The notes below the pieces were generated by a model, which was not told the DNA's origin, searched no databases, and saw only the letters and a program-made list of their open reading frames with translations. A stretch of 64,000 nucleotides of DNA from NCBI GenBank assembly GCA_030696315.1, contig JAUYSM010000098.1, positions 1 to 64,000 of the forward strand, written 5' to 3'. Source of the stretch: Pseudohongiella sp. GTDB taxonomy: Bacteria; Pseudomonadota; Gammaproteobacteria; Pseudomonadales; Pseudohongiellaceae. How positions within the stretch are numbered: position 1 is the first letter of the stretch; every line of letters starts with the position of its first letter. Shown in pieces: positions 20,185 through 60,605 of this stretch. The position numbers were made by a program, and so were the translations under genes.

Positions 20185-21399
20185 CTACTCGGTTAACCAT
20201 TCCAGCCAGAACGTGGTACCACTGCCCACCACTGTTTCGAAGCCGATATCCCCGTTCATCTGCAGGACCAATTTTCGAGTGATGGCGAGGCCAAGCCCGG
20301 TACCACCCTTGCTGCGCTTATCGGAGCTGTCAGCCTGGGTAAAATACTCGAACACCCGGTCGCGAAATTCACTTGCAATGCCTGGACCGGAATCTGTGAC
20401 TTCGATACGGATCTTGTTCGATTGGACCAGAACCGCTACACGTACCGGGGATCCATGCGGTGAAAACTTGATGGCATTGGATAGCAGGTTGGCCATGACC
20501 TGTTCAAATCGCCGCGAATCGCAGAGAAGGCGTACATCGGGAGCTATGGCTGCCAACTCCACATGTATGTTGTATTTATCTGCGTAGGACTGTATCGCAG
20601 CAATGCTTTGCTCCAGAAGAGGCAGCAGCGCGTATGATTCGATTTTTAGCGACAATTTACCCGCAGCCAGCTTGTCCATATCGAGCAGGTCATCAATGAG
20701 TTCAAGCAGGCGTTTACAATTCCTGGATGCAGCCGACAACAATTTTTCCATGGCCTTGGGCATTGGGCCGAACACCCCGGCATTGATGACGTCTACCGCT
20801 CCCATAATTGAGGTCAGTGGTGTTCGCAGTTCGTGGCTAACAGCTGCGGTGAATTCCTGCTTCATGCGCTCTGCTTCTTTAATCTGAGTGATATCTACCA
20901 GAATAGCCATAAACCCTTGCAATTCACCGAGTGAGTCCAGCATCGGGTTGCCAATGATCCGCGCCCAACGACTTTGTCCCTGCTGATCGCCAATAAAAAC
21001 TTCGGCGCTGAAAGGTTTGAATTCGGTCAGGGCACTCTCAACGCTGGATATCACCCGCAGATCCGGTTCGGATCGCAGCAACACTTCTAAAAGGGGAAGG
21101 TTGGAGAAACTTGCGGGGTCACCTCTCATCAGTGTGCTGAAGCTATCGTTGACCCATTGCACATTTCCATCCACCCCAGTGATCACTACTCCATTACTGG
21201 TCTGGCTTGCAACACGTGATAGCCGGTCAATTAACTGCTTGTTCGCGCGGTTCTCGATGTCAAGTTCTTTGGCTTGATGCTGCAAGACGATATTGGCTTC
21301 ATACAACTCGCGCGAACGCAATTCCAGCAGCCCTTCAACACGCTCTCTGGCTGCCTTCTGGCGGAGATAGGCAGCCTTGTAATCAGATGTTTCGTTCAT
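20185..21399 (-). CDS. Soluble PAS histidine kinase paired with H-NOX
   Basis: 404-aa histidine kinase without membrane segments. Residues 1-58 are a coiled coil, residues 60-175 a PAS domain (NGVVITGVDGNVQWVNDSF, then a PAC end), followed by HisKA with the phosphorylated His189 in SHELRTPLTS and a HATPase with N box NLLSNAIKFSP and G boxes DSGPGI, GGTGLGLAI. No receiver domain is attached. The start ATG at 21399 lies 17 bases inside the 3' end of the upstream H-NOX gene, so translation is probably coupled and the H-NOX should control this kinase, as in known H-NOX/HnoK pairs. Candidate phosphate acceptors in the window are the proteins at 34209, 35102 and 53687. Confidence 0.9.
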   Translation of the reverse strand: MNETSDYKAAYLRQKAARERVEGLLELRSRELYEANIVLQHQAKELDIENRANKQLIDRLSRVASQTSNGVVITGVDGNVQWVNDSFSTLMRGDPASFSNLPLLEVLLRSEPDLRVISSVESALTEFKPFSAEVFIGDQQGQSRWARIIGNPMLDSLGELQGFMAILVDITQIKEAERMKQEFTAAVSHELRTPLTSIMGAVDVINAGVFGPMPKAMEKLLSAASRNCKRLLELIDDLLDMDKLAAGKLSLKIESYALLPLLEQSIAAIQSYADKYNIHVELAAIAPDVRLLCDSRRFEQVMANLLSNAIKFSPHGSPVRVAVLVQSNKIRIEVTDSGPGIASEFRDRVFEYFTQADSSDKRSKGGTGLGLAITRKLVLQMNGDIGFETVVGSGTTFWLEWLTE

Positions 21400-21940
21400 C
21401 GACTTTCTGAATCCGGAATGCACAATGATCGTTGCCATCGTGCATGCAAAGGTCGTGACTGACCAGCACTTCAGTATTGAACTGCTTCGCCGCCCCACGT
21501 ATGAGCCCGTCTGCCAGATGGCAAAGTCGGCGTGGAGATCGGTAATTTAGCAGCAGCACACGCGCAGAGGCTTGTTCGCAGGTGATTTCGGGAAGATTGG
21601 GACTCTCATAAAGCTTCTCCACCTCCTTGTGGATGACGCCATCAATGCTCTTCAGAAACTCGAATAGATCGGTTTTGTCTGTGACAAACACAGGGTGCTT
21701 TGTGGCAAGCGCATGGAAAAGGTATTGTCCGAAGCTTGTCAGCAGCTCATCAACTGGTTTTCCGGTCATCGAGGACAAATGACCCAGCATGGCAACAAGC
21801 TCCTCATCCGGAAAATCTTCAACCGCTGTATAGATGCCACCGGACGCTGGTTTTACCTTTTCCAGCAGACTCTCCCAGCACGAAATTCCAATCCGGTTTT
21901 CCACCATGTCATTGAAGGTCGTGAAGACAATACCTTTCAT
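21383..21940 (-). CDS. H-NOX haem nitric oxide/oxygen-binding sensor
   Basis: 185-aa haem sensor of the H-NOX (HNOB) family. The proximal haem ligand is His104 in GVIHKEVEKLY and the propionate-binding motif YxSxR is Tyr133-Arg137 (YRSPR). The start MKGIVFTTFNDMVE and the length are typical for stand-alone bacterial H-NOX. Cys140, His162, Cys165 and Cys173 reproduce, shifted by one, the spacing of a zinc/redox site that I recall from the Shewanella oneidensis protein. Facultative aerobes use H-NOX as a nitric oxide sensor that changes activity of a partner kinase or cyclase. The partner here is the overlapping kinase gene. The upstream region (21941-22163) must contain divergent promoters; I cannot name one. 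Confidence 0.93.
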   Translation of the reverse strand: MKGIVFTTFNDMVENRIGISCWESLLEKVKPASGGIYTAVEDFPDEELVAMLGHLSSMTGKPVDELLTSFGQYLFHALATKHPVFVTDKTDLFEFLKSIDGVIHKEVEKLYESPNLPEITCEQASARVLLLNYRSPRRLCHLADGLIRGAAKQFNTEVLVSHDLCMHDGNDHCAFRIQKVDERNI

Positions 21941-22163
21941 GCGATGCCCTGTCGGAATTATTAATGCAGTGCCTCAAGAGTAACCTAGTATTCCAGAGTC
22001 GTCGAGTTCCGCAGCTGGTGTCAATCTAAAGTTAACACGCAAATCGATTGCTTTGAGTTCTGTTAAACAGAGTAGAATGCGTTGCAAGTTTAATGATTTC
22101 TGGGTCTGCCATAGGCGATGGGTTTCTGCCCTGATGGCACAGGTGCTAGAGGGAAGGTAAATT

Positions 22164-23501
22164 ATGAAGAGCATTTTTCCTGGCAGCAACTTGCTACTGA
22201 CCCTTTGCCTGGCTTTCTCACCGTCACAGGGTAGCGCGCAGGATTATGATTCTCTGATACAAGAGTCATTAACTCAAAGGAATGCTGGACAGTTTGCTGA
22301 TGCGGAGATAACGCTCAGACAGGCCTTGGATTTGCCCGCAGACAAGTCAGAGGTACGTTATCTGTTGGCAATGACTATCGCCTTTCAGCAACGTTTTACT
22401 GAAGCCAACAGTGTGATTGATTTGGCTCTGGCCGAGAAGCCTGACGATATCTCCTTGCTGCTGGGCAAGGCCCGCATCCGGTCATTTCAGGGCTTGTATA
22501 GCGAGTCTGAAACGCTGATAGCGCAAGCCCTCGAGCAGGACAACACCAATATTGAGGCTATTAATCTTTCCGCGCGCATCTCTATGTACCAGCAGATGCC
22601 CTCTGTTGCGTTGGATCGATTTAACCAGGTTCTTGCACGTGACAGCACCGATCTCGAGGCGCTGATAGGCCGCTACGACGCGCTTTATGCTTTGGGACAG
22701 CGCGATGCTGCCGATGAAACCTTGCTGCAGGCCGAACGTGCAGCGCCGGCGCACATTGATGTCCAAACACGACGCGACCGTTCCTTGCTGCCGGCTATTA
22801 ATCGCAATCAATTACTGTTTGGCGTTTCTCAAAGCCGCTTCTCAACACCTGGGCTGTCACGCTGGCGCGACCAGTTTGTGGAATATCGACGACAGCAGTC
22901 GCTGGACTCGGAGTGGTATGTGCAACTGTCTCAGAACCAGCGCTTTGACGACCGTGACAACAGCCTGAGCGCAGGGTTTATTGGCAATCGTCAGGGGTCT
23001 GTTCCCTGGCACATCTGGGCCGGCTTCAGCCCGGACAAAAATTTTTCAGCCTCATCTCACCTCGGCGCTTCCATGACCATCCGGCTGAATCAGGGCAGCG
23101 ATCGCCTGGGCCCCACCCTGGTCACACCATCACTGCGCATCGCCGACTATACAACCGGAACCGTCCGACGTCTGGCCTTTGATTTTGAGCACTATTTACG
23201 TGGCACCAATATTTGGTTCAGCCCCGGTCTTGGCTGGGTTCAGGATGAGAATTCTGACCGGACATTCACCTGGAGTCTGGCAGCTCACTGGCAAGCGAGT
23301 GAGCGTTTCAGAACCGGCGCCGGCTTTGCAGACGGCGCGGAAACCGAAAACAAGATCACCACCCAGACCCGCTCGCGATTTGTTTATGTGCGCTGGCAAT
23401 TTACCGACGAACTCAACGCGACTTTATCCCTGTCCAGCGACCAGCGCCGTAATTCCTATACCCGCGACACAATCAGCCTGACAATCGGGACTCGATTCTG
23501 A
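22164..23501 (+). CDS. TPR protein with C-terminal outer-membrane beta-barrel (YaiO-like)
   Basis: 445-aa exported protein. A signal peptide (LLLTLCLAFSPSQGSAQ) is followed by about five TPR helix pairs in residues 30-210 (A-x-x-L-x-x-AL patterns such as QFADAEITLRQALDL). Residues about 215-445 have alternating hydrophobic/aromatic strands and end in Phe (TISLTIGTRF), the mark of an outer-membrane barrel; the layout matches YaiO-like barrels. In EPS loci, TPR-barrel proteins can act as outer-membrane export ports (as AlgK/AlgE or PgaA do), so it may help secrete the polymer. It starts the rightward set with galE, 25 bases away. Confidence 0.75.
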   Translation: MKSIFPGSNLLLTLCLAFSPSQGSAQDYDSLIQESLTQRNAGQFADAEITLRQALDLPADKSEVRYLLAMTIAFQQRFTEANSVIDLALAEKPDDISLLLGKARIRSFQGLYSESETLIAQALEQDNTNIEAINLSARISMYQQMPSVALDRFNQVLARDSTDLEALIGRYDALYALGQRDAADETLLQAERAAPAHIDVQTRRDRSLLPAINRNQLLFGVSQSRFSTPGLSRWRDQFVEYRRQQSLDSEWYVQLSQNQRFDDRDNSLSAGFIGNRQGSVPWHIWAGFSPDKNFSASSHLGASMTIRLNQGSDRLGPTLVTPSLRIADYTTGTVRRLAFDFEHYLRGTNIWFSPGLGWVQDENSDRTFTWSLAAHWQASERFRTGAGFADGAETENKITTQTRSRFVYVRWQFTDELNATLSLSSDQRRNSYTRDTISLTIGTRF

Positions 23502-26432: not shown

Positions 26433-27680
26433 ATGACCAACCACGTTTTGCCCGCAGCACCATCCATTGCTTACCTGGTCAGCGAATACCCTGCCACTTC
26501 GCATACCTTTATTCTGAAAGAGGTGCTTGGCCTGCGACAATTGGGGTTCAGGATCGCCACTGCCAGCATCAATGCAGATAACAGACCCTTGGCGGCGCTC
26601 ACCGATGACGAGCGTGCAGCACGTGATAGCACTTACGTGATCAAATCCCACGGGCTGCGCGGCGCGCTGATCGCTCAACTGTGGTGCCTGCGGCATTATC
26701 CGCAGGGTTATGCGCGTGGGCTGCTGGCGGCCCTGCGTCGCAGCCTGACTAACCCACGCACAATCTTGCGCAACCTCGCGCATTTTGCCGAAGCCTTGAT
26801 GATAGGTCGTTGGATGCAGCGGGAAGCGATCCAGCACCTGCATGTGCATTTTGCAACCGCTGGCGCGTCGGTTGCGAGTCTGGCCAAACAGATTTTTAAT
26901 ATCACCCTGTCGATGACTGTGCATGGACCAGACGAATTCGCCAATGTGCGCAATGAACATTTCCATGAAAAGGTCGCTGCGGCTGATTTTGTGGTGTGCA
27001 TCAGCCATTTTGCCCGCAGCCAGACCATGCAACACAGTGCGCCCGAGCATTGGAAAAAGCTCGATGTATCGCGGCTGGGTGTTGATCCCGGGAGGTTTGC
27101 GCCAATGCCAAATAGCCCTGATTCGGACGAATTTTTAGTGCTGTGTGTGGGGCGGCTGACGCCGGCCAAAGGCCAGCATCTGCTGCTCGACGCGATCGCT
27201 GCCCTGCATAACACCGGCGAAAAAATTCGACTGGAGCTTGCGGGTGATGGCCCGGACCGATTTTCCTTACAGCGACATGCGGAGGCTCTTGGCATCACCA
27301 CACTGGTTAAATTTCATGGCGCACTCAACCACGATCAGGTCAGGGCGTTGTATGCATCATGCGACGCCTTTGTGCTGCCAAGTTTTGCCGAGGGCATCCC
27401 GGTGGTATTGATGGAGGCCATGGCCTCTGGCGTACCCTGTATCAGCACCCGCATCGCGGGTATCCCTGAATTGATTGAAGATGGTGAAAGCGGATTTCTG
27501 GCATCGCCCTCGAGTCTGGACGAGTTGACTGACAGGCTGCGCCAGCTGATTCACGATCCGGTAGTACGCAACCGCCTTGCAACTAACGGCCGCAAACGAG
27601 TCTGTGACGCCTATGATCTGCAACGCAATATTGTGGGTTTGGCACAACTGTTTCAACGCCGACTGGGAGCGAGTTCATGA
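26433..27680 (+). CDS. Glycosyltransferase family 4 (EPS)
   Basis: 415-aa GT-B glycosyltransferase that would add a sugar to the lipid-linked EPS repeat in the cytoplasm. The C-terminal domain has the family 4 marks: VGRLTPAKGQHLLLDAI, a PSFAEGIPVVLMEAMASG segment with the EX7E nucleotide-sugar motif, and GIPELIEDGESGFL. The N-terminal domain begins IAYLVSEYPATSHTFI, found in colanic-acid-type transferases (WcaL/AmsK-like). The donor and linkage are not known. ATG 26433 follows a GGAG. The next gene overlaps by 4 bases. Confidence 0.92.
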   Translation: MTNHVLPAAPSIAYLVSEYPATSHTFILKEVLGLRQLGFRIATASINADNRPLAALTDDERAARDSTYVIKSHGLRGALIAQLWCLRHYPQGYARGLLAALRRSLTNPRTILRNLAHFAEALMIGRWMQREAIQHLHVHFATAGASVASLAKQIFNITLSMTVHGPDEFANVRNEHFHEKVAAADFVVCISHFARSQTMQHSAPEHWKKLDVSRLGVDPGRFAPMPNSPDSDEFLVLCVGRLTPAKGQHLLLDAIAALHNTGEKIRLELAGDGPDRFSLQRHAEALGITTLVKFHGALNHDQVRALYASCDAFVLPSFAEGIPVVLMEAMASGVPCISTRIAGIPELIEDGESGFLASPSSLDELTDRLRQLIHDPVVRNRLATNGRKRVCDAYDLQRNIVGLAQLFQRRLGASS

Positions 27681-28864
27681 TCGACGTATTCATTTCAGTG
27701 GTTGCGACGCTGGCGAGTATTCTCAGTCTGCCCGGTAGCCTCACACTGGCGCTGCTATCACTTGCTGCGCTGTGGCCAAGTCGGGTCACCCGCATTATCA
27801 AACCGGCTGAGACTGGACGCATCGCCATTGTGATCCCTGCACATAATGAAAGCGCGAGCATCGGTCGCACCCTGAGCAATGTGCTGGCAGCAAGCCGGGC
27901 AGATACGCGCACCGACGTGTGGGTAATCGCCGACAATTGCGACGACGATACTGCGCAATTGGCGCAAGCTGCCGGCGCTCATGTCATCGTGCGCAGTCAT
28001 GCCCAATTGCGTGGCAAAGGTCACGCTCTGGAGTATGCATTTGCTCAACTAACACCCATGTCATACAGCTGGTTGATGGTTATTGATGCCGACAGCACGC
28101 TGGAGCCGGGCTTTCTCCCGGCCATGCGCGCTGCGATGTCAGCAGACAGAAACGCGCTGCAGGCCTGTTATCTGTCAACGGCGGGCAACCACTTGCGCTC
28201 ACGCGTCAGTCGTCTTGCACAATGGGGTTTTAATCTGGTGCGCCCGCTTGCACGCCAGCGTCTGGGCTTTTCTTGCGGACTCATGGGCAATGGCTTTGCG
28301 CTGCGCACAGAACTGCTGGAACGCCTACCTTACCGCGCACACTCAGTGGTGGAGGATCTGGAGTATCACCTGCTGCTGGTCAATCAGGGAGAGCGCGTAC
28401 ATTTTGTTGCCGATGCGGTGGTCACTGGTGAGATTGCAGATACCCGCGACGGTGCGCGCACCCAACGCACGCGCTGGGAGGGCGGTCGCCTGCGCATGTT
28501 GCAGGAGCACTTGCCATCCCTGCTGCGCCGAAGCCTGCGTGGGGACCGTGCCGCTGCAGAGTTACTGGCCGACCTGCTGCTACTGCCTCTGGGTATGCAC
28601 GTTGTGTTACTACTGATTGCTGCCATGTTGGGCGGAATTGGTCTTTATGCTGCACTGATTGGATTACTTGCAATTGGCCTTTACGTCAGCGCGATTCTCT
28701 GGCGTGGCCCCACCACAACGCAGGATCTGCTGGTACTTGCCTGCAGCCCTGTTTACCTGATCTGGAAGCTTACCCTGCTGCCGGCGACGCTGTTACAAAG
28801 CCGACGTCGGGCACATTGGGTGCGCTCCAGACGCAACAACGAAATCGGGATTAATCATGAGTAA
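27677..28864 (+). CDS. Glycosyltransferase family 2, membrane-associated
   Basis: 395-aa GT-A enzyme. An N-terminal hydrophobic stretch (residues about 8-35) precedes the catalytic domain starting AIVIPAHNESASIG. The metal-binding DADST motif is near residue 137, the catalytic acid lies in SVVEDLEYHLL, and RTRWEGGRLRML is a QxxRW-like variant typical of processive enzymes such as cellulose/hyaluronan synthases, although the first residue is Arg-Thr-Arg-Trp. Two C-terminal hydrophobic segments (residues about 310-350) suggest membrane contact. It overlaps its neighbours on both sides (4 and 8 bases), so they form one transcript. Confidence 0.9.
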   Translation: MIDVFISVVATLASILSLPGSLTLALLSLAALWPSRVTRIIKPAETGRIAIVIPAHNESASIGRTLSNVLAASRADTRTDVWVIADNCDDDTAQLAQAAGAHVIVRSHAQLRGKGHALEYAFAQLTPMSYSWLMVIDADSTLEPGFLPAMRAAMSADRNALQACYLSTAGNHLRSRVSRLAQWGFNLVRPLARQRLGFSCGLMGNGFALRTELLERLPYRAHSVVEDLEYHLLLVNQGERVHFVADAVVTGEIADTRDGARTQRTRWEGGRLRMLQEHLPSLLRRSLRGDRAAAELLADLLLLPLGMHVVLLLIAAMLGGIGLYAALIGLLAIGLYVSAILWRGPTTTQDLLVLACSPVYLIWKLTLLPATLLQSRRRAHWVRSRRNNEIGINHE

Positions 28865-29849: not shown

Positions 29850-29855
29850 TCTGCT

Positions 29856-30371: not shown

Positions 30372-30417
30372 ACCTTGGTGTGTCCGATTACGGGTGCCTT
30401 CAGTTGACCAAAAGTCT

Positions 30418-30447
30418 CCGCAGTGTATGCTTGAAGCGACACTGCGG
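30418..30447 (+). other. Perfect 9-bp hairpin in the leader of the TIM-barrel gene
   Basis: CCGCAGTGT / ACACTGCGG (30418-30426 and 30439-30447) with a 12-base loop lies 33 bases before the start codon at 30481. No T tract follows on either strand, so it is not a standard terminator. It may protect the upstream mRNA end or affect translation of the next gene. Confidence 0.5.
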
Positions 30448-30480
30448 TCTAATCCAGGTGCCAGGGAGTCTCTCACCAGC

Positions 30481-38699: not shown

Positions 38700-38722
38700 C
38701 AATGTGTTCATGATTCAACGTG

Positions 38723-45942: not shown

Positions 45943-45944
45943 AA

Positions 45945-50373: not shown

Positions 50374-52553
50374 TGAATCTATTACGCCTGTTGTGCTGGC
50401 GTGCCTGCGCGGTGCTGCTCAGTGTTTTGCTGGGCACACCAGTAAGCGCGGCCACCGAACTGGTGATTGGTGATACCCCGATTCTTGCATTCACGCCTCG
50501 TATCGGTCTGAATCTGGGGCAGTGGACAAGCTGGGGTGCCGAGCAGCTTTCGCGCAACATTGTGAAAAATCCGGGATTTGAAGGTGCAGTTGATCGTACC
50601 CTGGTGCGTGCTTTTGATGTTCAGCGCCACGCTTTCAGCGACGACGAATCGTGGCTGGCGCGCCCCGATGGCTTTTGGGCAACAGCAAACTTTGAAGTGT
50701 TAACCGGCGCAGCGGTCGGGCAAACCGGTAAGATTCTGGACTCTCTGGCACGCAATGCACGCGGACGGCCCGAGTACCGTCTGGCAAAACCGATTCATGG
50801 ACTGGTCGAGGGCGATATCATTGCGCTCACCCTGGTGCGCGACGATCAGCCGCCGGCGCGCTGGTGGCTACCAGACGCCGGGGAAGGTGTGGCGCGCATT
50901 ACCACGTCACTGGTGGCACCCGACAGTCCCGGGCAGCGTTCTCTGGGGCTGTACCCGGAGCGTCAGGCCAGTGTGCGCATAAGCAGCCATTTTGATGCGA
51001 TTGGTGAGCGCGCCGGTAAACTGTTAACAGTGAACGGACCCTGGCGATTGGGAGTGTGGATACACGGAGCGGCCACAGGTGCAGCGCAAGTGCATATCCG
51101 CTTTCATCGGCATGGCAGCACTCCATTTGTCGATATTCAGCATACGGTCGCGCCCGGCTGGCATTATTTAAGTTATGCCTTTGAGGCTGATGACAGCGGT
51201 CCGGTCGGCCCATTGGAACTGTCTGTAGAGGTGAGCGGCGGCATCGTGCATCTGGATGATGTCTGGCTGGGCGCGCAACAACAGCAAACTGCGCAGGATC
51301 ATGCTGGTAGTCTTGCCACGGAAATCTTTAATCCGCAGCTCATCCGCTTGCTTGAACACCTGCGTCCCGGCTACCTGCGCGATTGGCAAGGGCAGTTGGG
51401 CGATACGCTCGACAATCGACTTGCAACACCCTTTGCGCGACGCACTAGCCGTTATCGCCCCGGCGACGCTGACTTTGGCTACGGACTACCGGAATTTCTT
51501 GATCTCAACCACTTGGTTGGTGCCCAGCCCTGGCTGATTCTGCCCACTACGTTCAGCCCGGACGAAGCCAGAGAACTGGGCGCCTGGCTGGCAGTAAAAA
51601 TTGACGAGTATGGGTTTGACGACGTGATTGTTGAGTTCGGCAACGAAAACTGGAATGCAATCTTCCGCCCGGCGGGTATCCAGAACCCCGATCACCACGG
51701 TGCAGCTGCTGACCGCCTGTTTAGTGCACTGCGCGCTGGCGCCGGTGACCATCCTGCGCTGCGCACAGCCATCAATGCACAGTATGTGAACCCGCACTCG
51801 GCCCTGCGCTTTGCTGCAGCCTCTCGGCAGGCTGATATTCTGGGTGTAGCGCCCTATTTTCTGAACAAGCTCGACACCACTGATCGTGGCCGCGAAACGC
51901 CAATGCTGTTTGCTGCCAACGATGATCTGATGGCCAGTATTATCGCTGACCGCCCGGCCCGGCAGGAAATTGCGGTATATGAAATCAACCTGCACACCAC
52001 CCGCGGCGACATGCCTCAGGCAGAGCGTGACGCGCTGATAACCAGCCCGGCTGCCGGCGCGGCACTTGCCCGCCACCTGCTGCATTACCTGAATCAGGGC
52101 GTCCGCCGGCAGAACGTTTACCGGGTCACCGGTTATGACACTTTTTTACAAGACAGCCGCGAACTTACCCAACTGTTTGGCATCGCCCGCGATTTGACGC
52201 ATACCAACAATCTGCGCCCTACCGGCATGGCGGTGGAGATGCTGAACCGCATCATTGGGGGCACTCTGTATCCGGTCAACGTTGCCAACAGCGCCAGCTC
52301 ACTGGTGACCGTCAGCGCTTTTCGACATGCTCAAGGCTGGAAAGTCGCACTGGTCTCGCAATCGCCTCAGCCACAGATCCTGCGCATACGTTTTCCTGAT
52401 GACGGCAGGGCTTTGCCTTTACACGCGGGGCTGTTGAGCAATCAGACTGTAGACTCGCCGATTGTGTTACAGGTCAGTGAACGGCTGATTGAGATCTCTC
52501 TTCCCGCCTTCAGTCTGATGACTCTTGCCCCCGAATTCGACATTTCACATTGA
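50373..52553 (+). CDS. Exported GH clan-A (GH51-like) glycosidase
   Basis: 726-aa exported protein; the signal peptide is the hydrophobic CAVLLSVLLGTPVSA at the N terminus (start ATG 50373; the GTG at 50370 is an alternative, both overlap the previous stop). Residues about 35-310 are beta-rich with NPGFEG and IVHLDDVWLG segments typical of carbohydrate-binding modules. Residues about 320-560 look like a clan-A catalytic barrel: VEFGNENWN with acid/base Glu425 and IAVYEINLHT with nucleophile Glu537. Arabinofuranosidase-like or other exo-glycosidase activity is possible. Its place in the EPS operon suggests polymer editing or release in the periplasm. Confidence 0.8.
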   Translation: MNLLRLLCWRACAVLLSVLLGTPVSAATELVIGDTPILAFTPRIGLNLGQWTSWGAEQLSRNIVKNPGFEGAVDRTLVRAFDVQRHAFSDDESWLARPDGFWATANFEVLTGAAVGQTGKILDSLARNARGRPEYRLAKPIHGLVEGDIIALTLVRDDQPPARWWLPDAGEGVARITTSLVAPDSPGQRSLGLYPERQASVRISSHFDAIGERAGKLLTVNGPWRLGVWIHGAATGAAQVHIRFHRHGSTPFVDIQHTVAPGWHYLSYAFEADDSGPVGPLELSVEVSGGIVHLDDVWLGAQQQQTAQDHAGSLATEIFNPQLIRLLEHLRPGYLRDWQGQLGDTLDNRLATPFARRTSRYRPGDADFGYGLPEFLDLNHLVGAQPWLILPTTFSPDEARELGAWLAVKIDEYGFDDVIVEFGNENWNAIFRPAGIQNPDHHGAAADRLFSALRAGAGDHPALRTAINAQYVNPHSALRFAAASRQADILGVAPYFLNKLDTTDRGRETPMLFAANDDLMASIIADRPARQEIAVYEINLHTTRGDMPQAERDALITSPAAGAALARHLLHYLNQGVRRQNVYRVTGYDTFLQDSRELTQLFGIARDLTHTNNLRPTGMAVEMLNRIIGGTLYPVNVANSASSLVTVSAFRHAQGWKVALVSQSPQPQILRIRFPDDGRALPLHAGLLSNQTVDSPIVLQVSERLIEISLPAFSLMTLAPEFDISH

Positions 52554-52657
52554 CGACACCTTTGCCGTAAACGGGCAGTGTCTAATCGTTGGCTATTGCA
52601 TCACTGCATACACCTTAGGTTCCAACACCCTGTCCGGGATAGTCGGGAGAGTACCCA

Positions 52658-53662
52658 ATGCGACTACTGACCACCTTGCTTCTTGCCAGCGCCGCCATAC
52701 TGAGCGGTTGCAGCGCGGGCCTGCCCCCGTTGGCCATGTCCAATAACACGCTGGTGTTCGAACCTGTTGATAAAAGCGAAAGCATCAACTACCTGGATGC
52801 GGAGGCTATGGCGCTGTTTGAAGCGCCGGTTGATCCGGTCTATCGTCTGGGAGCCGGTGATCATTTGACCGTCGAAGTCTGGGGTCGCCCAGAGGTTAGC
52901 GGCTCGCACGTGGTCGGGCCAGACGGGCGTATTACCATGCCCTTGGTCGGTACTGTGCGATTGGCAGATATCACTCGTGAAGAAGCCGCGCGCGATGTAC
53001 ATAACATGCTTGCCAATTACTATGTACAGCCTTCCGTAGTACTCAGGGTCGACCAATACACGGCCAATCGCGTCACCGTGCTGGGCCGGGTTCAGAACCC
53101 GGGCACCATACAATTTGATGAACAGCCTACTCTGCTGGAGGCGCTGGCCAAAGCCGGATCGTTGCCGGTAATCGACAAGGAGGCAACGCTGACCCGGGTA
53201 GCCGTGTTCCGTGGTCGCGAGCAGGTTGCCTGGGTAGATTTGAGAGAATTGCTTAATCGCGTTAATCCCGCCTACAACATCCGCCTGATGGCCGGCGATT
53301 TGATCTATATCCCTGATTCGTCAGATACTATGGTCTATGTGATGGGCGAGGTACACCGGCCCGGCGCCTATCGCCTGACGCCTGACATGGCGCTGCTGGA
53401 TGCGCTTGCCCAGGCGGGCGGTCCGACCGAGGATGGCGATCCGTCAGGCATCAGCATCTACCGCCCAGAGAAACAAGCCGGTCAGGAAACGCCGCTGCAG
53501 GCACTGATCACTGGCAGCCAGACACTTAACTTCAGTCTTCAGGAAGGTGACGTGATCTACGTTGAGAAACGCGGTGTAGCCAGAGCCGGTTATGTACTGA
53601 GGCAATTATTGCCGGGACTTTCATTTATGACCCTCGGTTTGTCAGCGTTGAACCCGGAATAA
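52658..53662 (+). CDS. Wza/GumB-like polysaccharide export lipoprotein
   Basis: 334-aa outer-membrane export protein. The signal peptide ends in the lipobox LSGC with lipidated Cys18. A polysaccharide export domain (residues about 60-140: YRLGAGDHLTVEVWG, GPDGRITMPLVGTVRL) is followed by two SLBB domains (RVTVLGRVQNPGTIQF and MVYVMGEVHRPGAYRLTP). A C-terminal helical end (LRQLLPGLSFMTLGLSAL) fits the outer-membrane alpha-barrel. It should form the channel that works with the Wzc-like co-polymerase at 43726. A 104-base gap before it separates it from the glycosidase gene and may hold a promoter; none is certain. GGGAGAG lies before the ATG. Confidence 0.94.
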   Translation: MRLLTTLLLASAAILSGCSAGLPPLAMSNNTLVFEPVDKSESINYLDAEAMALFEAPVDPVYRLGAGDHLTVEVWGRPEVSGSHVVGPDGRITMPLVGTVRLADITREEAARDVHNMLANYYVQPSVVLRVDQYTANRVTVLGRVQNPGTIQFDEQPTLLEALAKAGSLPVIDKEATLTRVAVFRGREQVAWVDLRELLNRVNPAYNIRLMAGDLIYIPDSSDTMVYVMGEVHRPGAYRLTPDMALLDALAQAGGPTEDGDPSGISIYRPEKQAGQETPLQALITGSQTLNFSLQEGDVIYVEKRGVARAGYVLRQLLPGLSFMTLGLSALNPE

Positions 53663-53686: not shown

Positions 53687-56350
53687 ATGAACCTGCCCAC
53701 TGGATTCCTTGCATTGCGAGAGCGCTTTCTGGCCAGACTACCAGAACGTCTTGAGCGCATGCGCGTGCAAATGGCGGCGCTTGCTGTTGGGGATCTCACC
53801 GCGCTGTCTGAACTCAAAAGAGAGGCGCATAGTCTGGTCGGTGCTGCTGGACTGCATGAAATGACTGAACTGGCGCGCGCTGCGTCACAGCTTGAAGAAC
53901 TGGCAAATACGCAGGCCGGACTGGATATTCTGGAAAAGGCTATCAACAAGATTGCCGACACCATCAAAGGCCAACACTCGCACAGCGCACCCGTTGCAGA
54001 AGCAGACAACTCACGAGCCGCCATCGCCTTGCTGTTTCAGGGGAAGGAAGAGATGGCGTCGCTGGCAGCCTTGCTTGGCGGCGCAGGTTATGGTGTTACT
54101 CAGTACGACACGATCGATAATTTCAAGCGTGCCATCGCAGCTAATGAGCGACCCGATCTGTTGCTGCTGGGCCTGCAGTTTAATGGTGACAATCAGGCAG
54201 GCGTTGAATTCCTGTGCCAACTGCGCGCTGATCTGCTCAGCACACTGCCGGTGCTGGTGCTGTCTGCCAGCCATTCGATTGAACGTGGCATGGCTGCCTA
54301 CAAGGCGGGTGCCGACCGGGTGCTGGCCAAGCCAATTTCCGCCGAAGCACTGCTGCATCACGTGTCCGACACCCTGGCAGCGCGCAAGATACCGCTCAGG
54401 ACACTCCTGGCCGTAGGCGCAGCGCAGGGAAAATTTGCGCAATTTATTGCCGATATGAGTGCCCCCCTGCTGTGTTTTGAGTTCTGCTCCGATCCCAGAG
54501 ACATTCCGGCACGGCTGAGCGCTGCCAGCGTTGATGCCATCATTCTGGATGATTCGGCAAACAATGCCGAACCAACGCTGGCACTCGATCAACTCCTGCA
54601 GGACTACCCGCAGTCAGCACATCTGCCGATTATTGTTTTTACTGACGGACACGATGAGCAGCAGCGGGCAAAAGCATGGGCAGCCGGCAGTGCTGCGGTG
54701 ATTGATGCCGGTCTGGCTGCCAGCGAGTTTGCTGCAATGGTGCGTAGCCTGTGCCGCACAGCCGAACGCGGCCGCAAAGATGTCGATGCTGCCGAGCGCC
54801 AGCAGTATGAAAATGCTCGCCAACGACTGGCACTGGATCACCACGCAATCATCAGTCTGGCAGATGCCTCTGGCACCATCTTCAACACTTCACCACGCCA
54901 CGATGCATTAACCGGATTTGCCCGTACCGAGCTGATCGGCAGTCATCTGAGCGAGTATCGTCGCGGGCTTGCCCCACCGGAGCTGAATGCGGAAATTCTG
55001 TTGCAGGTGCGCAACGGGCGCGTCTGGCAGGGTGAATATCAACTGCCCTGCAAGTGCGACGAAACGCGCTGGGTACAGACAACGCTGGTGCCGTTTCTTG
55101 ATCAACACGGCAGCCCTTACCAATACATGGTAATCCGTAACGACATCACCGACCGCAAACGCAGCGAGCAAGCCCTGCTTGGTGCCAGTGCGCGCGAGAC
55201 CATGCTGGCAGCACAGATACAGGAAACCCTGCTGTTGCCGCCGCTCCCCACCAGCATTGGCAGTATACCCGTCGCATCGCGCTACCGCGCATCAGCGGGA
55301 GTTGCTGGTGACTTTCACGCGCTGATCCAGATCGGCCCCGATACCTTCGACCTGTTAATTGGCGACGTCATGGGTAAAGGTGTGCCTGCGGCGCTGATCG
55401 GTGCCGCGGTCAAAATGGAACTCAGCCAAAGCCTGCTTGAACTGCGCGCCAATGGCACAGACATTGCGGCGCCGCAGCCCAAGGCGATTATTGAAGCGTT
55501 GGACCGCAGACTGACATCCCGTCTGATCGAACTTGAGTGTTTTGTCACGCTGGCTTATGTACGTTTTGATCGCCAGCATCAGACCCTGACCAGCGTAGGT
55601 TGCGGACATCCGGAAATACTGGTGTTTGCACAGGATAGTATTCAGGAAATACCCAATCAGCATCCACCGCTGGGCACCATCGTTAATGAGATTTATACCC
55701 AGACCACCACACCTTGGCTAAAAGGTTCATTGGTGTTGCTCTACTCTGACGGACTGAGCGAAACCTGCAATAACAGAGGTCAGATGCTGGATGTGTCAGG
55801 CCTCAAGCGCATCACATGCGAGGCAATGACTGACTATAGCCATCCGGATCAGATAGCCCGGCTGATAATGGACGCCACCGAATGCTTTGCAGCGGGAAGT
55901 CACCCGGAAGACGACCGCACCCTGGTTGCAGTCCGATTACCTGCGGATAACGAGCATTTTATTGATCTGCCGAACCACGTCGGGGCAATAACGCGGCTGC
56001 GGGAATTTATCCTTACTTCTTGTCCTCCCGGGTTGGCACTGGACGAAACGGACCGAATTGTGTTGGCAAGTGTTGAGGCGTTTACCAATATAGTGAGACA
56101 CGCTGAGCTTATCTCTGGCAAAATCAGGATCCTTCTCAAGTACGACCAGAGTCGGCTCACGCTGAGTATGCACTATGATGGCCAGTCTTTTACGCTGCCA
56201 CCAAACACGACGCTGCCGGACGCGGAAGAACTGAAAGAGGGCGGTTATGGCCTTCCGCTGATCCATGCGCTGTGTGATGAATTCACCTGCGGATATACGC
56301 TGGGCGCCAATACCAATCACTTGGTTTTTCACGTGGCAACCAGCGGTTGA
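53687..56350 (+). CDS. Hpt / pseudo-receiver / PAS / PP2C (SpoIIE) / HATPase regulator
   Basis: 887-aa cytoplasmic signalling protein. Residues 1-100: Hpt with His48 (EAHSLVGAAG). Residues 118-232: a receiver whose phosphorylation position is Gly162 (LLLLGLQF), Lys215 kept. Residues 236-355: a second receiver-like module (IILDDS). Residues 380-495: PAS. Residues 505-750: PP2C/SpoIIE phosphatase with Asp542 (GDFHAL), Asp560 (GDVMGKG), Asp688 (YSDGLSE) and Asp743 (EDDRT). Residues 760-885: RsbW-like HATPase with Asn801 (EAFTNIVRH). Phosphatase and kinase/anti-sigma activities in one chain match the STAS protein at 42233. It starts 24 bases after the export lipoprotein. Confidence 0.9.
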   Translation: MNLPTGFLALRERFLARLPERLERMRVQMAALAVGDLTALSELKREAHSLVGAAGLHEMTELARAASQLEELANTQAGLDILEKAINKIADTIKGQHSHSAPVAEADNSRAAIALLFQGKEEMASLAALLGGAGYGVTQYDTIDNFKRAIAANERPDLLLLGLQFNGDNQAGVEFLCQLRADLLSTLPVLVLSASHSIERGMAAYKAGADRVLAKPISAEALLHHVSDTLAARKIPLRTLLAVGAAQGKFAQFIADMSAPLLCFEFCSDPRDIPARLSAASVDAIILDDSANNAEPTLALDQLLQDYPQSAHLPIIVFTDGHDEQQRAKAWAAGSAAVIDAGLAASEFAAMVRSLCRTAERGRKDVDAAERQQYENARQRLALDHHAIISLADASGTIFNTSPRHDALTGFARTELIGSHLSEYRRGLAPPELNAEILLQVRNGRVWQGEYQLPCKCDETRWVQTTLVPFLDQHGSPYQYMVIRNDITDRKRSEQALLGASARETMLAAQIQETLLLPPLPTSIGSIPVASRYRASAGVAGDFHALIQIGPDTFDLLIGDVMGKGVPAALIGAAVKMELSQSLLELRANGTDIAAPQPKAIIEALDRRLTSRLIELECFVTLAYVRFDRQHQTLTSVGCGHPEILVFAQDSIQEIPNQHPPLGTIVNEIYTQTTTPWLKGSLVLLYSDGLSETCNNRGQMLDVSGLKRITCEAMTDYSHPDQIARLIMDATECFAAGSHPEDDRTLVAVRLPADNEHFIDLPNHVGAITRLREFILTSCPPGLALDETDRIVLASVEAFTNIVRHAELISGKIRILLKYDQSRLTLSMHYDGQSFTLPPNTTLPDAEELKEGGYGLPLIHALCDEFTCGYTLGANTNHLVFHVATSG

Positions 56351-56360: not shown

Positions 56361-57914
56361 ATGCAAGTACCCGGCATTCCTCACAATGAACTCGACCGAC
56401 TAAACGCACTGCGTCACACAGGACTGCTTGACTCGCCGCCCGAGGAACGTTTTGATCGTCTGACGCGGTTGACCAAACATATATTCAAAACCCGTATTGT
56501 GGTGATTTCGCTGATCGACGCTGATCGTCAGTGGTTCAAATCGCGCCAGGGTCTGGATGTGTGCGAAACCAGTCGCAAGGTTTCGTTTTGTGGTCATGCC
56601 ATTCTTGAACCTGAGATCCTTGAAATTGAGGATGCCAGCAAGGACGAACGATTTTTCGACAACCCGTTAGTGACCGGTGAGCCGTATATCCGTTTTTATG
56701 CCGGCGTCCCGATTAAAAGCGCATGCGGTAACGTGTTGGGGACACTCTGCATCATTGACGACAAACCCCGCCGCCTGACCGACGACGAACGGCTTTGCCT
56801 GCGCGAGCTGGCGGATTGTGTTGAAGCAGAATTGACCACCATCGACCGCCGACACCTGTTGTCGGTCGCTACCCAGACCACCAATGGTGTGGTGATTACT
56901 AATCTGGCCGGTCGAATCGTCTGGGCGAACAGCGGATTCACGCGACTTACCGGTTACAGCCTTGATGAAGTGCGCGGACAGACCCCGATCTCAATTCTGA
57001 AGGGTGACGCGTCCAATCATGCCGCCATCAGCCAGATGCAAGCGGCGTTGGTGAATTGTCAGCCCTTTGACGTAGAGATTGTTAATTACGACAGAAGCGG
57101 CCAGCCGCATTGGGTGCACATCAGCGGCAACCCATTACTGAACGAGCGCGGTCAACCCGAAGGCTATCTGTCCATACAAAGCGATCTCACCAAAATCATG
57201 CAGGCTGAGCAATTAAAACGTGAACTGACTACCACCATCAGTCATGAGTTGCGCACCCCGTTGACCTCCATTGATGGTGCTATCAGTCTGCTCAAGGTTG
57301 GCGCGGCAGGAGTCCTTCCGGAGTCCGCTCGCAAACTGGTCGATATCGCTGACCGAAATACCAAACGCTTGCGAGTGCTGATTGATGACCTGCTGGATAT
57401 GGAAAAACTGCTGGCTGGCAAATTGTCTTTTTGTTTTCGCGACCTCGAATTACGTTCACTGCTGGAGCAAGCGCTCAGCGAACATCAACCCTTTGCCGAT
57501 CTGCACGGCGTGCGTGTGAGGCTTGACGCCAGCATTAATCAGACGCGGATTTATACCGACCCTGATCGCTTTCAGCAGGTTATGAACAACTTGCTGTCGA
57601 ACGCAGTGAAGTTCTCGCCAGCCAATGCAGAGGTAGTGGTAACCACTCATGAAGACAAGCAGTTTGTGCGCGTGACGGTCCGCGACCAGGGGCCTGGCAT
57701 CGCCCCCGAGTTTCAGCCACAGGTTTTTGAAAAGTTCGCGCAGGCCGACTCCTCCGATACGCGCAAGCGCGGCGGTACCGGCCTGGGTCTGGCCATTACC
57801 AAAGAACTGGTAGAACAGATGCACGGGCATATTGGATTTGATTCAGCACCCGGCGAAGGTGCAACTTTCTGGTTCGAGCTGCCGAGACAATCAACCGCTT
57901 CAAACCATCACTAA
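56361..57914 (+). CDS. Soluble GAF-PAS histidine kinase
   Basis: 517-aa kinase without membrane segments. Residues 20-160 form a GAF domain (LDVCETSRKVSFCGHAI, FYAGVPIKSACGNVLGTLCIIDD), residues 170-285 a PAS domain (NGVVITNLAGRIVWANSGFTRLTG), then HisKA with His295 (SHELRTPLTS) and a HATPase (NLLSNAVKFSP, DQGPGI, GGTGLGLAITKE). Its kinase part is strikingly like that of the protein at 59067, so the two probably arose by duplication. ATG 56361 is chosen because the upstream frame belongs to the previous gene; the gap is 10 bases. It lacks a receiver. Confidence 0.92.
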   Translation: MQVPGIPHNELDRLNALRHTGLLDSPPEERFDRLTRLTKHIFKTRIVVISLIDADRQWFKSRQGLDVCETSRKVSFCGHAILEPEILEIEDASKDERFFDNPLVTGEPYIRFYAGVPIKSACGNVLGTLCIIDDKPRRLTDDERLCLRELADCVEAELTTIDRRHLLSVATQTTNGVVITNLAGRIVWANSGFTRLTGYSLDEVRGQTPISILKGDASNHAAISQMQAALVNCQPFDVEIVNYDRSGQPHWVHISGNPLLNERGQPEGYLSIQSDLTKIMQAEQLKRELTTTISHELRTPLTSIDGAISLLKVGAAGVLPESARKLVDIADRNTKRLRVLIDDLLDMEKLLAGKLSFCFRDLELRSLLEQALSEHQPFADLHGVRVRLDASINQTRIYTDPDRFQQVMNNLLSNAVKFSPANAEVVVTTHEDKQFVRVTVRDQGPGIAPEFQPQVFEKFAQADSSDTRKRGGTGLGLAITKELVEQMHGHIGFDSAPGEGATFWFELPRQSTASNHH

Positions 57915-57941: not shown

Positions 57942-59060
57942 GTGAGCCTCAGCCGCTTCTCCCTTGCCTTTACTGCAGATCCCTCACCTGCAGCGGCCAT
58001 CGCGCTGGCGGATACTGCCATCGCCAACGGTGCCGAGTCCCTGATTCTGCTGGCCTGCGACAACAACGGTTGCCATCCGCAGCAGTTTGACGACTGGCTG
58101 GGCAGGCTCAGCGTTCCCATCTGCGGTGGGGTTTTCCCGCAGCTGATTCACGATTGGAAAAACCACGATCAGGGTTACATTGTAGTCAGCCTGCCAGAGA
58201 AAGCGGTCATTTATAACGTGCCGGGACTCTCTGATCCGGCCGCCGATTTAAACACAACAATTGAATCGCTTCTCGGCACCGGCGAACCACCCCTTAGCAT
58301 GATGATGCTGGTCGACGGCCTGTCGAGCCGTATCGGCGAGTTGTTGGATGCGGTGTACGACAATCTGGGCAGCAGCCCGGTTTATTTTGGTGGCGGTGCT
58401 GGCAGCCTGAGTTTTCAATCAAGGCCCTGCCTGTTTTCCAATCTTGGCATGCTGGTCGATCATGCCCAGCTGGTGGTGTTGCCGTGGCGTTTTGCGCTCG
58501 GCGTGGAGCATGGTTGGGAGAAGTTTGCCGGCCCGTTTGTGATTACCGACTCAACCAGAAATGTCGTCCACTCGCTGGACTTCAGACCGGCTTTCGAGGT
58601 TTACCGCGAGCTCGTTGAGGCTGATAGCGGGCAGCACTTCAATGATGATAACTTTTTTGACATCGCCAAGGCTTATCCGTTTGGCCTGGAGAAACCTGAT
58701 GGCAGCATTCTGGTGCGCGACCCAATCAGCCAGGATCAAAACGATTTGAACTGTGTGGGCGAAGTGCCTTCAAACAGTCTTGTTTATCTGCTCAAAGGTG
58801 AGGCCTCTAACCTGATACGCGCCGCAGCGACCGGGGCAGCCGCAGTACCGAGCGGTACTGGTCCTGCCATTCTTGTGGACTGCATCAGCAGGGTTTTATT
58901 CCTGCAGAACGATTTTCTGCAAGAGCTCGATGCCGTCATGCAGGTGCTGGGCAAGCGTCCGCTGTTAGGCATGCTGACGCTGGGAGAGATTGCCAATGGC
59001 GGGGATTTCTGCCTGGAATTTTATAACAAGACCTTTGTTCTTGCCGCCACAGTTGATTAA
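57942..59060 (+). CDS. FIST-domain sensor, NosP-like
   Basis: 372-aa cytoplasmic protein with a FIST N domain (residues about 15-220, with LACDNNGCHPQQFDDWL, GGVFPQLI and the FGGGAGSLSF glycine segment) and a FIST C domain (residues about 225-370, ending LGMLTLGEIAN and FCLEFYNKTFVLA). Some FIST proteins next to histidine kinases (NosP of Pseudomonas aeruginosa and Vibrio cholerae) bind haem and sense nitric oxide; others may bind other ligands. It starts with GTG at 57942, 27 bases after one kinase gene and 6 bases before another. It should control one or both. Haem binding cannot be proved from sequence. Confidence 0.85.
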   Translation: MSLSRFSLAFTADPSPAAAIALADTAIANGAESLILLACDNNGCHPQQFDDWLGRLSVPICGGVFPQLIHDWKNHDQGYIVVSLPEKAVIYNVPGLSDPAADLNTTIESLLGTGEPPLSMMMLVDGLSSRIGELLDAVYDNLGSSPVYFGGGAGSLSFQSRPCLFSNLGMLVDHAQLVVLPWRFALGVEHGWEKFAGPFVITDSTRNVVHSLDFRPAFEVYRELVEADSGQHFNDDNFFDIAKAYPFGLEKPDGSILVRDPISQDQNDLNCVGEVPSNSLVYLLKGEASNLIRAAATGAAAVPSGTGPAILVDCISRVLFLQNDFLQELDAVMQVLGKRPLLGMLTLGEIANGGDFCLEFYNKTFVLAATVD

Positions 59061-59066
59061 CACCCT

Positions 59067-60605
59067 ATGGAATCGAGTAATTCGCAAGCGCTGCGTCTGC
59101 TGAGTCTGCAATATGAACTGGCGCTACTTATTGGTCAGGATCTGCGACTCATCCCCATGCTTCGCCACTTTTTTACGCCAGCACTGAAGGCCATGCGCTG
59201 CCGCGCCGTGCACGTGTGGCTGCGCAGCGACACAACGTCGCCTCTGGAGAGACGTTTCAGCTACCCCGCGCGCGACGCGCTGATCTGGAGTAACAACCCT
59301 CAGTTCGCAGAATGGAGTGAGCTACTGGGGACTATCCCGGGGTTGCCCCGGAAAATGAGTGTTAATGCCCGCACGCAGCTGTTACAGATGCCGATGGGCA
59401 ATATTGGGCATTGTGTGCTGGTATACGAAGGTGCGGAAATCGATCACTTGATGATTGAGGCAACTCTCCCGATCTTTGCGCGTCTGGCGACCGCCTGCCG
59501 CGCGTCGATGGATCACGAGCGCGTTGAGCAACTTCAGGCACAAGCACTGGAAGGTAAAAAACGTTTACGTACAGTGCTGGAAACAGTCGGCGAGACAATT
59601 TTACAGACAGATAACACTGGCAACCTGACCTTCCTCAACGCAGAGTGGAGCCGACTTACCGGAGAGGAAATCGGGCAGAGCCTCGGGCGCCCGCTGGTTG
59701 ACTATATTCATGCTGAGGATGCCGCGCACTTTGAGGATGTTTTCCGTACCTCACTCAGCAGTCACGGAACGCTGACTCTGGAAGCAAGGTTGCGCTCTGC
59801 AGGATCTGCTACCCGATGGGTAACGATACGCTTAAGACGCGGATACACGGACGCGGACGTAAGCAGTGTAACGGGCACCATGCTTGATATCACCGAGCAG
59901 AGGAATGCGGAACGTATCAAACGCGAATTCACGGCAACCGTCAGCCATGAGTTGCGCACGCCGCTGACCGTCATCGACAGTGCCGTCAGTCTGCTTATCT
60001 CGGGTGCTGCCGGGCCACTGCCCGACGCCGCGCGCAAATTGATCGTCAATGCCAACAAAAACACCAAGCGTCTGCGCATGCTGATTGATGACTTGCTGGA
60101 CATTGAAAAATTGATGGCTGGCAAATTGTCATTCTCGATGCGCGAGATTGAACTTGTATCACTGCTGGACCAGGCGCTAAGCGAGCATCAAAGTTTTGCA
60201 GATTCCCACGGCGTGCGGGTGCGGGTTGGCGCCTGTGACGACAAGACCCGGGTTTATACCGATCCCGACCGTTTCCAGCAGGTGATGAACAATCTGCTGT
60301 CCAATGCAGTGAAGTTTTCACCCGACAACGGCGAAGTGTGGGTGACTGTCCAGCCGATCGATCAAGCGGTGCGCTTGACTATCCGTGACCAGGGTCCCGG
60401 CATCGCGACAGACTTCCAGTCACAGATCTTCGAAAAGTTTGCACAGGCCGACTCGTCCGATACCCGCAAGCGCGGCGGCACCGGACTGGGCCTGGCGATT
60501 ACCAAAGAAATAGTGGAACAGATGCACGGGCGTATTGGTTTTGATTCGCCTCCCGGTGAGGGCGCGGCATTCTGGTTTGAACTGCCAACTCACTCAACGG
60601 CTTGA
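59067..60605 (+). CDS. Soluble PAS histidine kinase next to the FIST sensor
   Basis: 512-aa kinase. Residues 8-155 are a GAF-like N-terminal domain (LSLQYELALLIGQDLRLIPML, CRAVHVWLR) typical of kinases found beside FIST genes. A coiled coil leads to a PAS domain (residues 168-280, ILQTDNTGNLTFLNAEWSRLTG), then HisKA with His294 (SHELRTPLTV) and a HATPase (NLLSNAVKFSP, DQGPGI, GGTGLGLAITKE). No receiver or membrane helix. It starts 6 bases after the FIST gene, which strongly suggests functional pairing. Phosphate may pass to Hpt or receiver proteins encoded in this locus. Confidence 0.92.
   Translation: MESSNSQALRLLSLQYELALLIGQDLRLIPMLRHFFTPALKAMRCRAVHVWLRSDTTSPLERRFSYPARDALIWSNNPQFAEWSELLGTIPGLPRKMSVNARTQLLQMPMGNIGHCVLVYEGAEIDHLMIEATLPIFARLATACRASMDHERVEQLQAQALEGKKRLRTVLETVGETILQTDNTGNLTFLNAEWSRLTGEEIGQSLGRPLVDYIHAEDAAHFEDVFRTSLSSHGTLTLEARLRSAGSATRWVTIRLRRGYTDADVSSVTGTMLDITEQRNAERIKREFTATVSHELRTPLTVIDSAVSLLISGAAGPLPDAARKLIVNANKNTKRLRMLIDDLLDIEKLMAGKLSFSMREIELVSLLDQALSEHQSFADSHGVRVRVGACDDKTRVYTDPDRFQQVMNNLLSNAVKFSPDNGEVWVTVQPIDQAVRLTIRDQGPGIATDFQSQIFEKFAQADSSDTRKRGGTGLGLAITKEIVEQMHGRIGFDSPPGEGAAFWFELPTHSTA

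Follow-up and report, generated by a model that had tools for sequence, protein, structure and literature searches.

Two sensor modules, H-NOX and FIST, with related histidine kinases at an exopolysaccharide locus of Pseudohongiella sp.

In Pseudomonas aeruginosa, NahK, the kinase partner of NosP, passes phosphate to HptB (PMC11784011), and HsbR and HsbA act downstream of HptB (PMC5085249). We analyzed a stretch of 64,000 bases (the window; bases 1 to 64,000 of the 117,748-base contig JAUYSM010000098.1) from the 3.96 Mb draft genome of a Pseudohongiella sp. (GCA_030696315.1), in which an H-NOX gene with a histidine kinase (HK), HK-A, and a FIST-domain gene with two further kinases, HK-B and HK-C, lie on either side of an exopolysaccharide (EPS) locus of the Wzx/Wzy type (Table 1). 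The three kinases share one type of core, and sensor-linked N-termini are joined to it in HK-A and HK-C. These findings suggest that two environmental inputs (H-NOX, and FIST of unproven ligand) converge on one biofilm switch.

Like the P. aeruginosa pathway, the locus combines a FIST-type sensor and kinase, an Hpt step, a phosphatase/kinase regulator, a STAS-type protein and a predicted biofilm output; in P. aeruginosa, however, hptB, hsbR and hsbA form an operon with the sensor genes elsewhere, and the kinase is a hybrid. The window, by contrast, gathers every component into one EPS locus; its FIST protein falls outside NosP, its three kinases are without a receiver, the switch protein carries an Hpt domain of its own, and an H-NOX is present as well. 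By analogy, a path from FIST through kinase, Hpt, PP2C and STAS appears to have a precedent, and the window apparently fits it into a single EPS locus, next to an H-NOX input. The syp locus of Vibrio fischeri likewise places a serine kinase/phosphatase regulator (SypE) and a STAS protein (SypA) in a polysaccharide locus (PMC4517449); its input is the RscS relay, with no FIST or H-NOX mentioned in the part of that source used here, and the switch protein of the window differs in having Hpt and degenerate receivers. Two sensors of the nitric oxide (NO) type on one network are not new, since in Vibrio LuxU is the common target of H-NOX/HqsK in V. harveyi and of NosP/VpsS in V. cholerae (PMC6769237), although these H-NOX and FIST-type sensors reach their one kind of Hpt in different species, through hybrid kinases and toward a quorum-sensing output. 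In the H-NOX/HnoK/HnoB systems of Shewanella and Vibrio, H-NOX acts on its associated kinase (PMC8846402, in part), a pairing that is predicted for the window; unlike those systems, the window has its kinase core in another clade than the sampled H-NOX kinases and no EAL regulator beside it.

Kinase cores and sensor-linked N-termini

Core identity is 75% between HK-B and HK-C, 52-53% between HK-A and HK-B, and 51-52% between HK-A and HK-C. A search of the same genome with the HK-C core returned 19 other places, headed by HK-B (75%), HK-A (51%) and three kinases on another contig, C50 (46-52%), with the remaining matches at or below 37% identity. An earlier sequence-only reading of the window had proposed one kinase type for both modules from three shared strings (IDDLLD, NLLSNA-KFSP, GGTGLGLAI); all three strings are present in HK-A, HK-B and HK-C, and the core identities and own-genome ranking indicate that the sharing goes beyond the generic. 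In a tree of 38 cores, HK-A, HK-B, HK-C, the three C50 paralogues and seven kinases of four FIST loci (L096-L099) formed a 13-row clade (support 100/100), outside of which fell five H-NOX HisKA kinases, five H-NOX kinases of a second type, 11 other FIST kinases and four own-genome kinases. These represent 5 of 6, 5 of 8 (loci), 11 of 12 and 4 of 14 further candidates, respectively, the remainder in each group having been excluded by motif, length or position filters. Together with the approximately unbiased (AU) tests given below, this bears out the proposed common type. HK-A did not group with the 10 sampled H-NOX kinases, so that the core relatedness expected of an HnoK is not seen. The four positions H+7/8/11/12 from the phosphorylated His govern specificity; they read TSGA in HK-A and HK-B and TVSA in HK-C, and H+7 is T in 13 of 13 clade members and N or H in 16 of 16 other H-NOX/FIST kinases listed. 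HK-C and HK-B scored 133.0 and 122.7 bits, respectively, against the NahK/ErcS model NF041832 (cut-off 400) and have no REC domain. NahK is presumably PA1976/ErcS', which fits the NCBIfam name 'NahK/ErcS family'. The Pfam scan reported no membrane domain in any of the three kinases, and HK-A overlaps the H-NOX stop by 17 bases, in keeping with the overlap of an H-NOX gene and a soluble-type PAS kinase described earlier.

The N-terminus of HK-A is a coil of ~45 residues that is common to proteins adjoining H-NOX genes in other genomes, where its outputs are two kinds of kinase and one PAS-GGDEF-EAL protein. A profile of nine H-NOX-neighbour proteins, with the window left out, matched the HK-A coil at E 2.8e-15. 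Among 17,019 open reading frames (ORFs) of 244 sources it gave 53 matches (the nine training rows included, and several loci being repeats of one place), and an H-NOX ORF lay no more than 100 bases away from 52 of them (37 distinct) and 956 bases away from the other; 54 distinct H-NOX ORFs were present, with just 37 distinct coil-bearing neighbours. HK-A thus both overlaps the H-NOX gene and begins with the coil that marks one class of H-NOX partner, as would an HnoK. Residues 1-165 of HK-C (59067-59561) match no Pfam family, which is likewise the case in seven of eight relatives scanned (for L165, over the stretches shown). The corresponding profile, from four relatives and again without the window, matched HK-C at E 5.6e-65 and gave 80 matches (the four training rows and similar repeats included): 73 within 100 bases of a same-strand FIST ORF (66 distinct), six at 1.4-4.6 kb, and one on the opposite strand of a FIST locus. 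None occurred in the 141 sources without FIST. The sources span Gammaproteobacteria, Burkholderiales, Rhodocyclaceae, Chloroflexi, Nitrospirae, Spirochaetia and others, and the outputs in eight scanned proteins were HK, hybrid HK and GGDEF-EAL. As a separate observation, in locus L099 FIST and the HK-C orthologue are separated by a GGDEF-EAL protein (11114-13330) whose N-terminus is of the HK-C type.

What is new here is this linkage to the sensors: among the sampled loci, the coil occurs only beside H-NOX and the HK-C region only in FIST-bearing loci. The coil in HK-A and the FIST-linked region in HK-C thus amount to two sensor-specific N-termini on one kinase core, and HK-A is best read as a putative chimera, with the N-terminus of an H-NOX partner on a PAS-kinase body of the EPS/FIST kinase group. 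A wider idea, which we hold only tentatively and at somewhat less than even chances, is a portable docking grammar, in which the H-NOX coil and the as yet unannotated FIST N-terminal domain are swapped among outputs (GGDEF-EAL proteins and kinases from several clades) and are here both set on one private core, so that two sensors of the gas/haem type would be wired to a self-contained Hpt/PP2C/STAS switch within the EPS locus under its control. If true, this would be a compact, testable model for the choice of a kinase by a stand-alone sensor, with the partner set by a short N-terminal region and the output by the core, and the FIST-associated region would make FIST-partner proteins recognizable across phyla.

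The cores of HK-B and HK-C also show joint evolution. N-termini of the window and of L097, a gammaproteobacterial metagenome-assembled genome (MAG), track orthology (66% between the two HK-B, 53% between the two HK-C, 24% between HK-B and HK-C of the window), whereas cores track the genome (75% within the window and 69% within L097, vs. 65% and 62% across for HK-B and HK-C, respectively). AU tests, with groups defined by gene position, though after the first tree was viewed, rejected a pairing of the two HK-B cores (p = 0.00076) and of the two HK-C cores (p = 0.0048); larger B (p = 0.025) and C (p = 0.016) sets take in L096. The simplest reading is that exchange or joint selection would keep the HK-B and HK-C cores interchangeable toward one receiver.

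Predicted output route and the two signals

The candidate shuttle at 35102 retains the Hpt His; the acceptor Asp of its first REC domain is replaced by Asn, and the second (REC2) is canonical by eye. In the switch protein at 53687, SpoIIE (E 2.6e-34) and HATPase_c_2 (E 1.5e-12) matches place a PP2C phosphatase and an RsbW-like kinase in one regulator. In all three orthologues (window, L097, L099) the acceptor Asp of the first receiver and the Lys of the second are lost, and the Hpt His is kept. Direct phosphotransfer from the kinases to 53687 was considered and ranked lower, given its two degenerate receivers. The STAS gene within the EPS locus is the candidate cognate partner of 53687, and by analogy these two likely form a partner switch of the SypE/HsbR type that is the target of the relay. 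Among 369 genomes of the class (up to two candidates scored in each), only the window itself matched 53687 at E ≤ 1e-60; a plasmid match covered 57% at 33.8% identity, with no EPS, FIST or H-NOX named among the seven features listed.

The best hint at the partner of the kinases is that their type accompanies the Hpt-REC-REC architecture, on C50 as well as at 35102 and 53687. The C50 cluster (L092, 5798-17504) comprises by Pfam an Hpt-REC-REC-GGDEF protein, a lone REC, an Hpt-REC-REC-GGDEF-EAL protein and three kinases, of which one carries a CHASE domain, another is a hybrid and the third is of the GAF-PAS type; it is likely a cyclic di-GMP (c-di-GMP) relay using the same kinase core as HK-A, HK-B and HK-C.

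As a whole, the explanation that fits best, and to which we give about even chances, is the following. H-NOX would act on the HK-A coil and FIST on the N-terminal region of HK-C, and HK-B would add a GAF-PAS input. Since the three kinases have one type of dimerization/phosphotransfer and catalytic (DHp-CA) domains, a single receiver would be the expected substrate of all three, with REC2 of 35102 as the likeliest candidate, and REC2 would pass phosphate to the Hpt domain of 53687. This protein would set the phosphorylation state of the STAS protein 42233, which would in turn switch EPS production on or off, as with SypE-SypA and HsbR-HsbA. The sequence-only reading had both sensors feed a single EPS-controlling phosphorelay. 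Such a relay is plausible, since the locus has its own Hpt/REC, PP2C-RsbW and STAS proteins; we infer the physical interactions, the order and sign of phosphotransfer, and the joining of the H-NOX branch to this relay. If so, NO or redox control of polysaccharide would be measurable without passing through c-di-GMP.

The identity of H-NOX is secure at the family level, as judged by the Pfam HNOB match (136.2 bits, cut-off 25.5, E 1.3e-39). It holds His104, presumably the proximal His, and Y133-x-S135-x-R137, which we take to be the H-NOX motif, both aligned to its best (4u9b, E 4.5e-41) and second (4u99) PDB matches. C140, H162, C165 and C173 form a zinc-type site of three Cys and one His, the composition being taken from the part of PMC12329717 used here; the same source gives 4U99 as the S. 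oneidensis H-NOX and reports that a zinc-site H-NOX responds to Cys oxidation and not to NO. The window protein is accordingly annotated as an NO or redox sensor of predicted haem type, whose Cys/His set may allow an oxidation response.

For the FIST protein, Pfam confirmed FIST_N-FIST_C between two kinase genes, the architecture of a NosP. The label NosP-like was dropped, as the protein scores 24.1 bits against the NosP equivalog NF041558 (cut-off 450), lower than many other non-NosP FIST proteins of the same order (~670-730 aa, possibly CdpA-like; 124-142 bits). The model is above cut-off in 67 of 390 genomes of the order, the window's genome not among them, and three genomes (G209, G288, G347) encode a true NosP and, in a different gene, a window-type FIST. 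Identity to four true NosP is 28-33% across parts of the FIST length; two other candidate NosP ORFs proved to be in the wrong frame and were excluded. Sequence profiles found no solved relative in the PDB at E ≤ 1, and the predicted fold (mean pLDDT 78.6, pTM 0.73) had no PDB match at E ≤ 0.001, so that a haem pocket could not be placed.

The two proteins may therefore not report one signal. In a two-signal gate, which is compatible with the wiring above and which we rate as nearly an even prospect, H-NOX would read NO or thiol/zinc oxidation and FIST would read haem or another small ligand, so that the locus would not be a double sensor of NO. The distance of this FIST from NosP, the retention of both as separate genes and the zinc-type site of the H-NOX are consistent with it, as is the remark in PMC8846402 that FIST, of which little is known, may have NO and/or haem as its ligand. 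On the other side, window-type FIST (E ≤ 1e-10) occurs in 5 of 137 genomes of the family, and all five also carry H-NOX (22 of 137 overall), the genes lying 3.2-5.1 kb apart in four congeners, beside c-di-GMP enzymes. The chance of this co-occurrence is 7e-5 (0.002 within the genus), figures that do not come from independent cases, since all five genomes belong to one genus.

Distribution in other genomes and alternative wirings

The FIST alignment, scanned against a genome collection, found 277 relatives, the best 80 of which were kept. EPS genes and a 53687 orthologue flank FIST in two of these 80, L097 and L099 (a Wenzhouxiangella MAG); the order exporter, 53687, HK-B, FIST, HK-C is kept in the former, and in the latter with a GGDEF-EAL gene inserted. 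L096, a 4.3-kb contig, holds kinase, FIST, kinase and glycosyltransferase, and L164 (Desulfonatronospira MAG; 1888-12684, ~11 kb) has an analogous set of FIST and kinase, a REC-PP2C-RsbW protein, a sugar-phosphate transferase and a STAS match. L132, L153 and L155, where the glycosyltransferase matches close to FIST are weak (23-25%), were not scored as EPS loci. In tblastn searches with six queries at 1e-8, none of the best 80 loci, which span 4-21 kb each, gave an H-NOX. The expectation that both modules would be conserved beside EPS genes in relatives was thus not borne out: the FIST half is an EPS neighbour conserved in a few lineages (the two loci, one truncated and one analogous), and the H-NOX half is, to date, peculiar to the window's genome. 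Locus L098 has two FIST genes ~0.4 kb apart (4974-7673), the second 68% identical to the window FIST and followed by an HK-C relative.

Within the genus, the combination of H-NOX and FIST recurs with different genes, and at least three genomes have it at the same site. Between folA (19654-20154) and argA (contig 65222-66547), the window's genome has an island of ~45 kb; argA directly follows folA in six congeners (G022, G025, G026, G027, G030, G033), and other genes intervene in G021. At this junction G028 and G031 have a ~10-kb cluster of OmpR regulator, Hpt, H-NOX, hybrid kinase, REC-EAL, FIST and FIST-side kinase; in G032 a kinase begins beside folA, and the cluster lies on a different contig. 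The congener loci with this compact cluster are L032 (10337-20000), L035 (3975-13776), L034 and L031. Its proteins are distant from those of the window (H-NOX 22-23%, FIST 31-36%), and the recurrence at folA-argA may reflect selection or an insertion hot spot. The sequence-only reading had been aware of no locus with both sensors bordering biosynthetic genes. Among the titles and abstracts listed in searches of a set of open-access papers, none dealt with an EPS locus bordered by H-NOX and FIST modules, which is weak evidence. The two sensors do co-locate in four congeners.

Several observations weigh against the proposed convergence on one switch. The loci behind the docking counts were for the most part selected for FIST or H-NOX (68 of the 244 sources hold neither), and 53687 has no canonical receiver that could be phosphorylated. 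Joint core evolution is absent from L099 (51% within, 54-59% across for C cores). The first kinase of L096 is truncated with a C-like PAS (65% to the second L096 kinase, 24% to HK-B) and may not be an HK-B orthologue, so that L096 cannot be used with confidence. HK-A is placed with the C50 trio (95/89) in the 38-core tree and with an L098 FIST kinase (93/91) in another, and AU tests reject neither HK-A, HK-B and HK-C (p = 0.094) nor HK-A and C50 (p = 0.226) as one clade, so HK-A could serve C50. G+C is 52.0% at 20155-26400, similar to the flanks (52.1 and 52.6%), and 55.5% at 26400-65200; the H-NOX and EPS-FIST parts may have different histories. H-NOX is absent from all eight whole genomes with near FIST relatives (L096-L101, L103, L105; completeness not stated, two of them 2.1 and 2.7 Mb), and its convergence with FIST is thus not conserved.

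The placement with C50, the G+C difference, the eight genomes (L097 and L099, which share the EPS-FIST unit, among them) and the variable folA-argA junction would fit a chance insertion of H-NOX/HK-A beside the EPS genes, with signaling elsewhere (e.g., to the Hpt-REC-REC-GGDEF(-EAL) proteins of C50) and the FIST module alone controlling EPS. We consider this unlikely, as identity of the HK-A core is 52 and 51% to HK-B and HK-C but 42-48% to the C50 kinases, the nearest match to the HK-A PAS is that of HK-B (35% vs. 14-25%), and HK-A and HK-B share TSGA, although the C50 hybrid kinase also has it. Ordinary H-NOX/HnoK and FIST/NahK-like pairs that act on c-di-GMP and, with no special wiring, lie near EPS genes, as the congeners with REC-EAL proteins and the known pairs (PMC8846402, in part) might suggest, are improbable here, since Pfam finds neither GGDEF nor EAL in the proteins encoded at 20185-21940 or 53687-60605 and the window kinases lack a receiver and fall in another clade.

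Layout of the locus

Table 1. Features of the window discussed in the text.
Feature	Position	Strand	Basis
HK-A: H-NOX-type N-terminal coil, PAS, HisKA, HATPase_c	20185..21399	-	Pfam, coil profile
H-NOX, predicted haem sensor, 185 aa	21383..21940	-	Pfam HNOB, PDB match, residues
TPR and YaiO-like barrel, divergent from H-NOX	22164..23501	+	Pfam, YaiO under its cut-off
EPS left half: glycosyltransferases, hexapeptide transferase, polysaccharide deacetylase, one family-less protein	26433..34187	+	Pfam
OmpR-type response regulator	34209..34922	-	Pfam Response_reg and Trans_reg_C
Hpt-REC-REC, candidate phosphate shuttle	35102..36196	+	Pfam, alignment
EPS glycosyltransferase, initiating sugar-phosphate transferase, WecG/CpsF-type transferase with hexapeptide repeats	37284..42195	+	Pfam
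STAS-domain protein, SypA/HsbA-like candidate	42233..42568	+	Pfam STAS E 1.3e-18; IDSAG motif
EPS assembly/export: Wzc-like (weak), Wzy-like, Wzx-like flippase, two family-less proteins, Wza-like exporter	43726..53662	+	Pfam, NCBIfam
Hpt-REC(degenerate)-REC(degenerate)-PAS-PP2C(SpoIIE)-RsbW-like kinase, SypE/HsbR-like	53687..56350	+	Pfam; second REC by eye
HK-B: GAF-PAS-HisKA-HATPase_c	56361..57914 (56361 = likely start)	+	Pfam
FIST_N-FIST_C protein	57942..59060	+	Pfam; NosP 24.1 bits vs. 450
HK-C: Pfam-less FIST-associated N-terminal region (~1-165), PAS, HisKA, HATPase_c	59067..60605	+	Pfam, profile

The island opens with H-NOX/HK-A at its left end, followed by the EPS genes within 22164-53662, then 53687, HK-B, FIST and HK-C, after which further sugar-transfer genes follow. 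The start of HK-A at 21399 is an ATG picked as likely, in a listed ORF that extends to 21498. From the exporter gene through 53687, HK-B, FIST and HK-C the spacings are 24, 10, 27 and 6 bases, and a scan of 52500-61000 gave one promoter-like sequence (4.3 expected) and eight terminator-like sequences (7.8 expected).

Two further proteins of the EPS region are recorded here. The product of 39502-42195 (+) is a single protein with a WecG/CpsF-type glycosyltransferase, a partial sugar-phosphate transferase stretch and hexapeptide repeats, and that of 24629-26356 (-), adjoining galE and EPS genes, carries Cadherin-like/Big_9 repeats and is a possible matrix adhesin.

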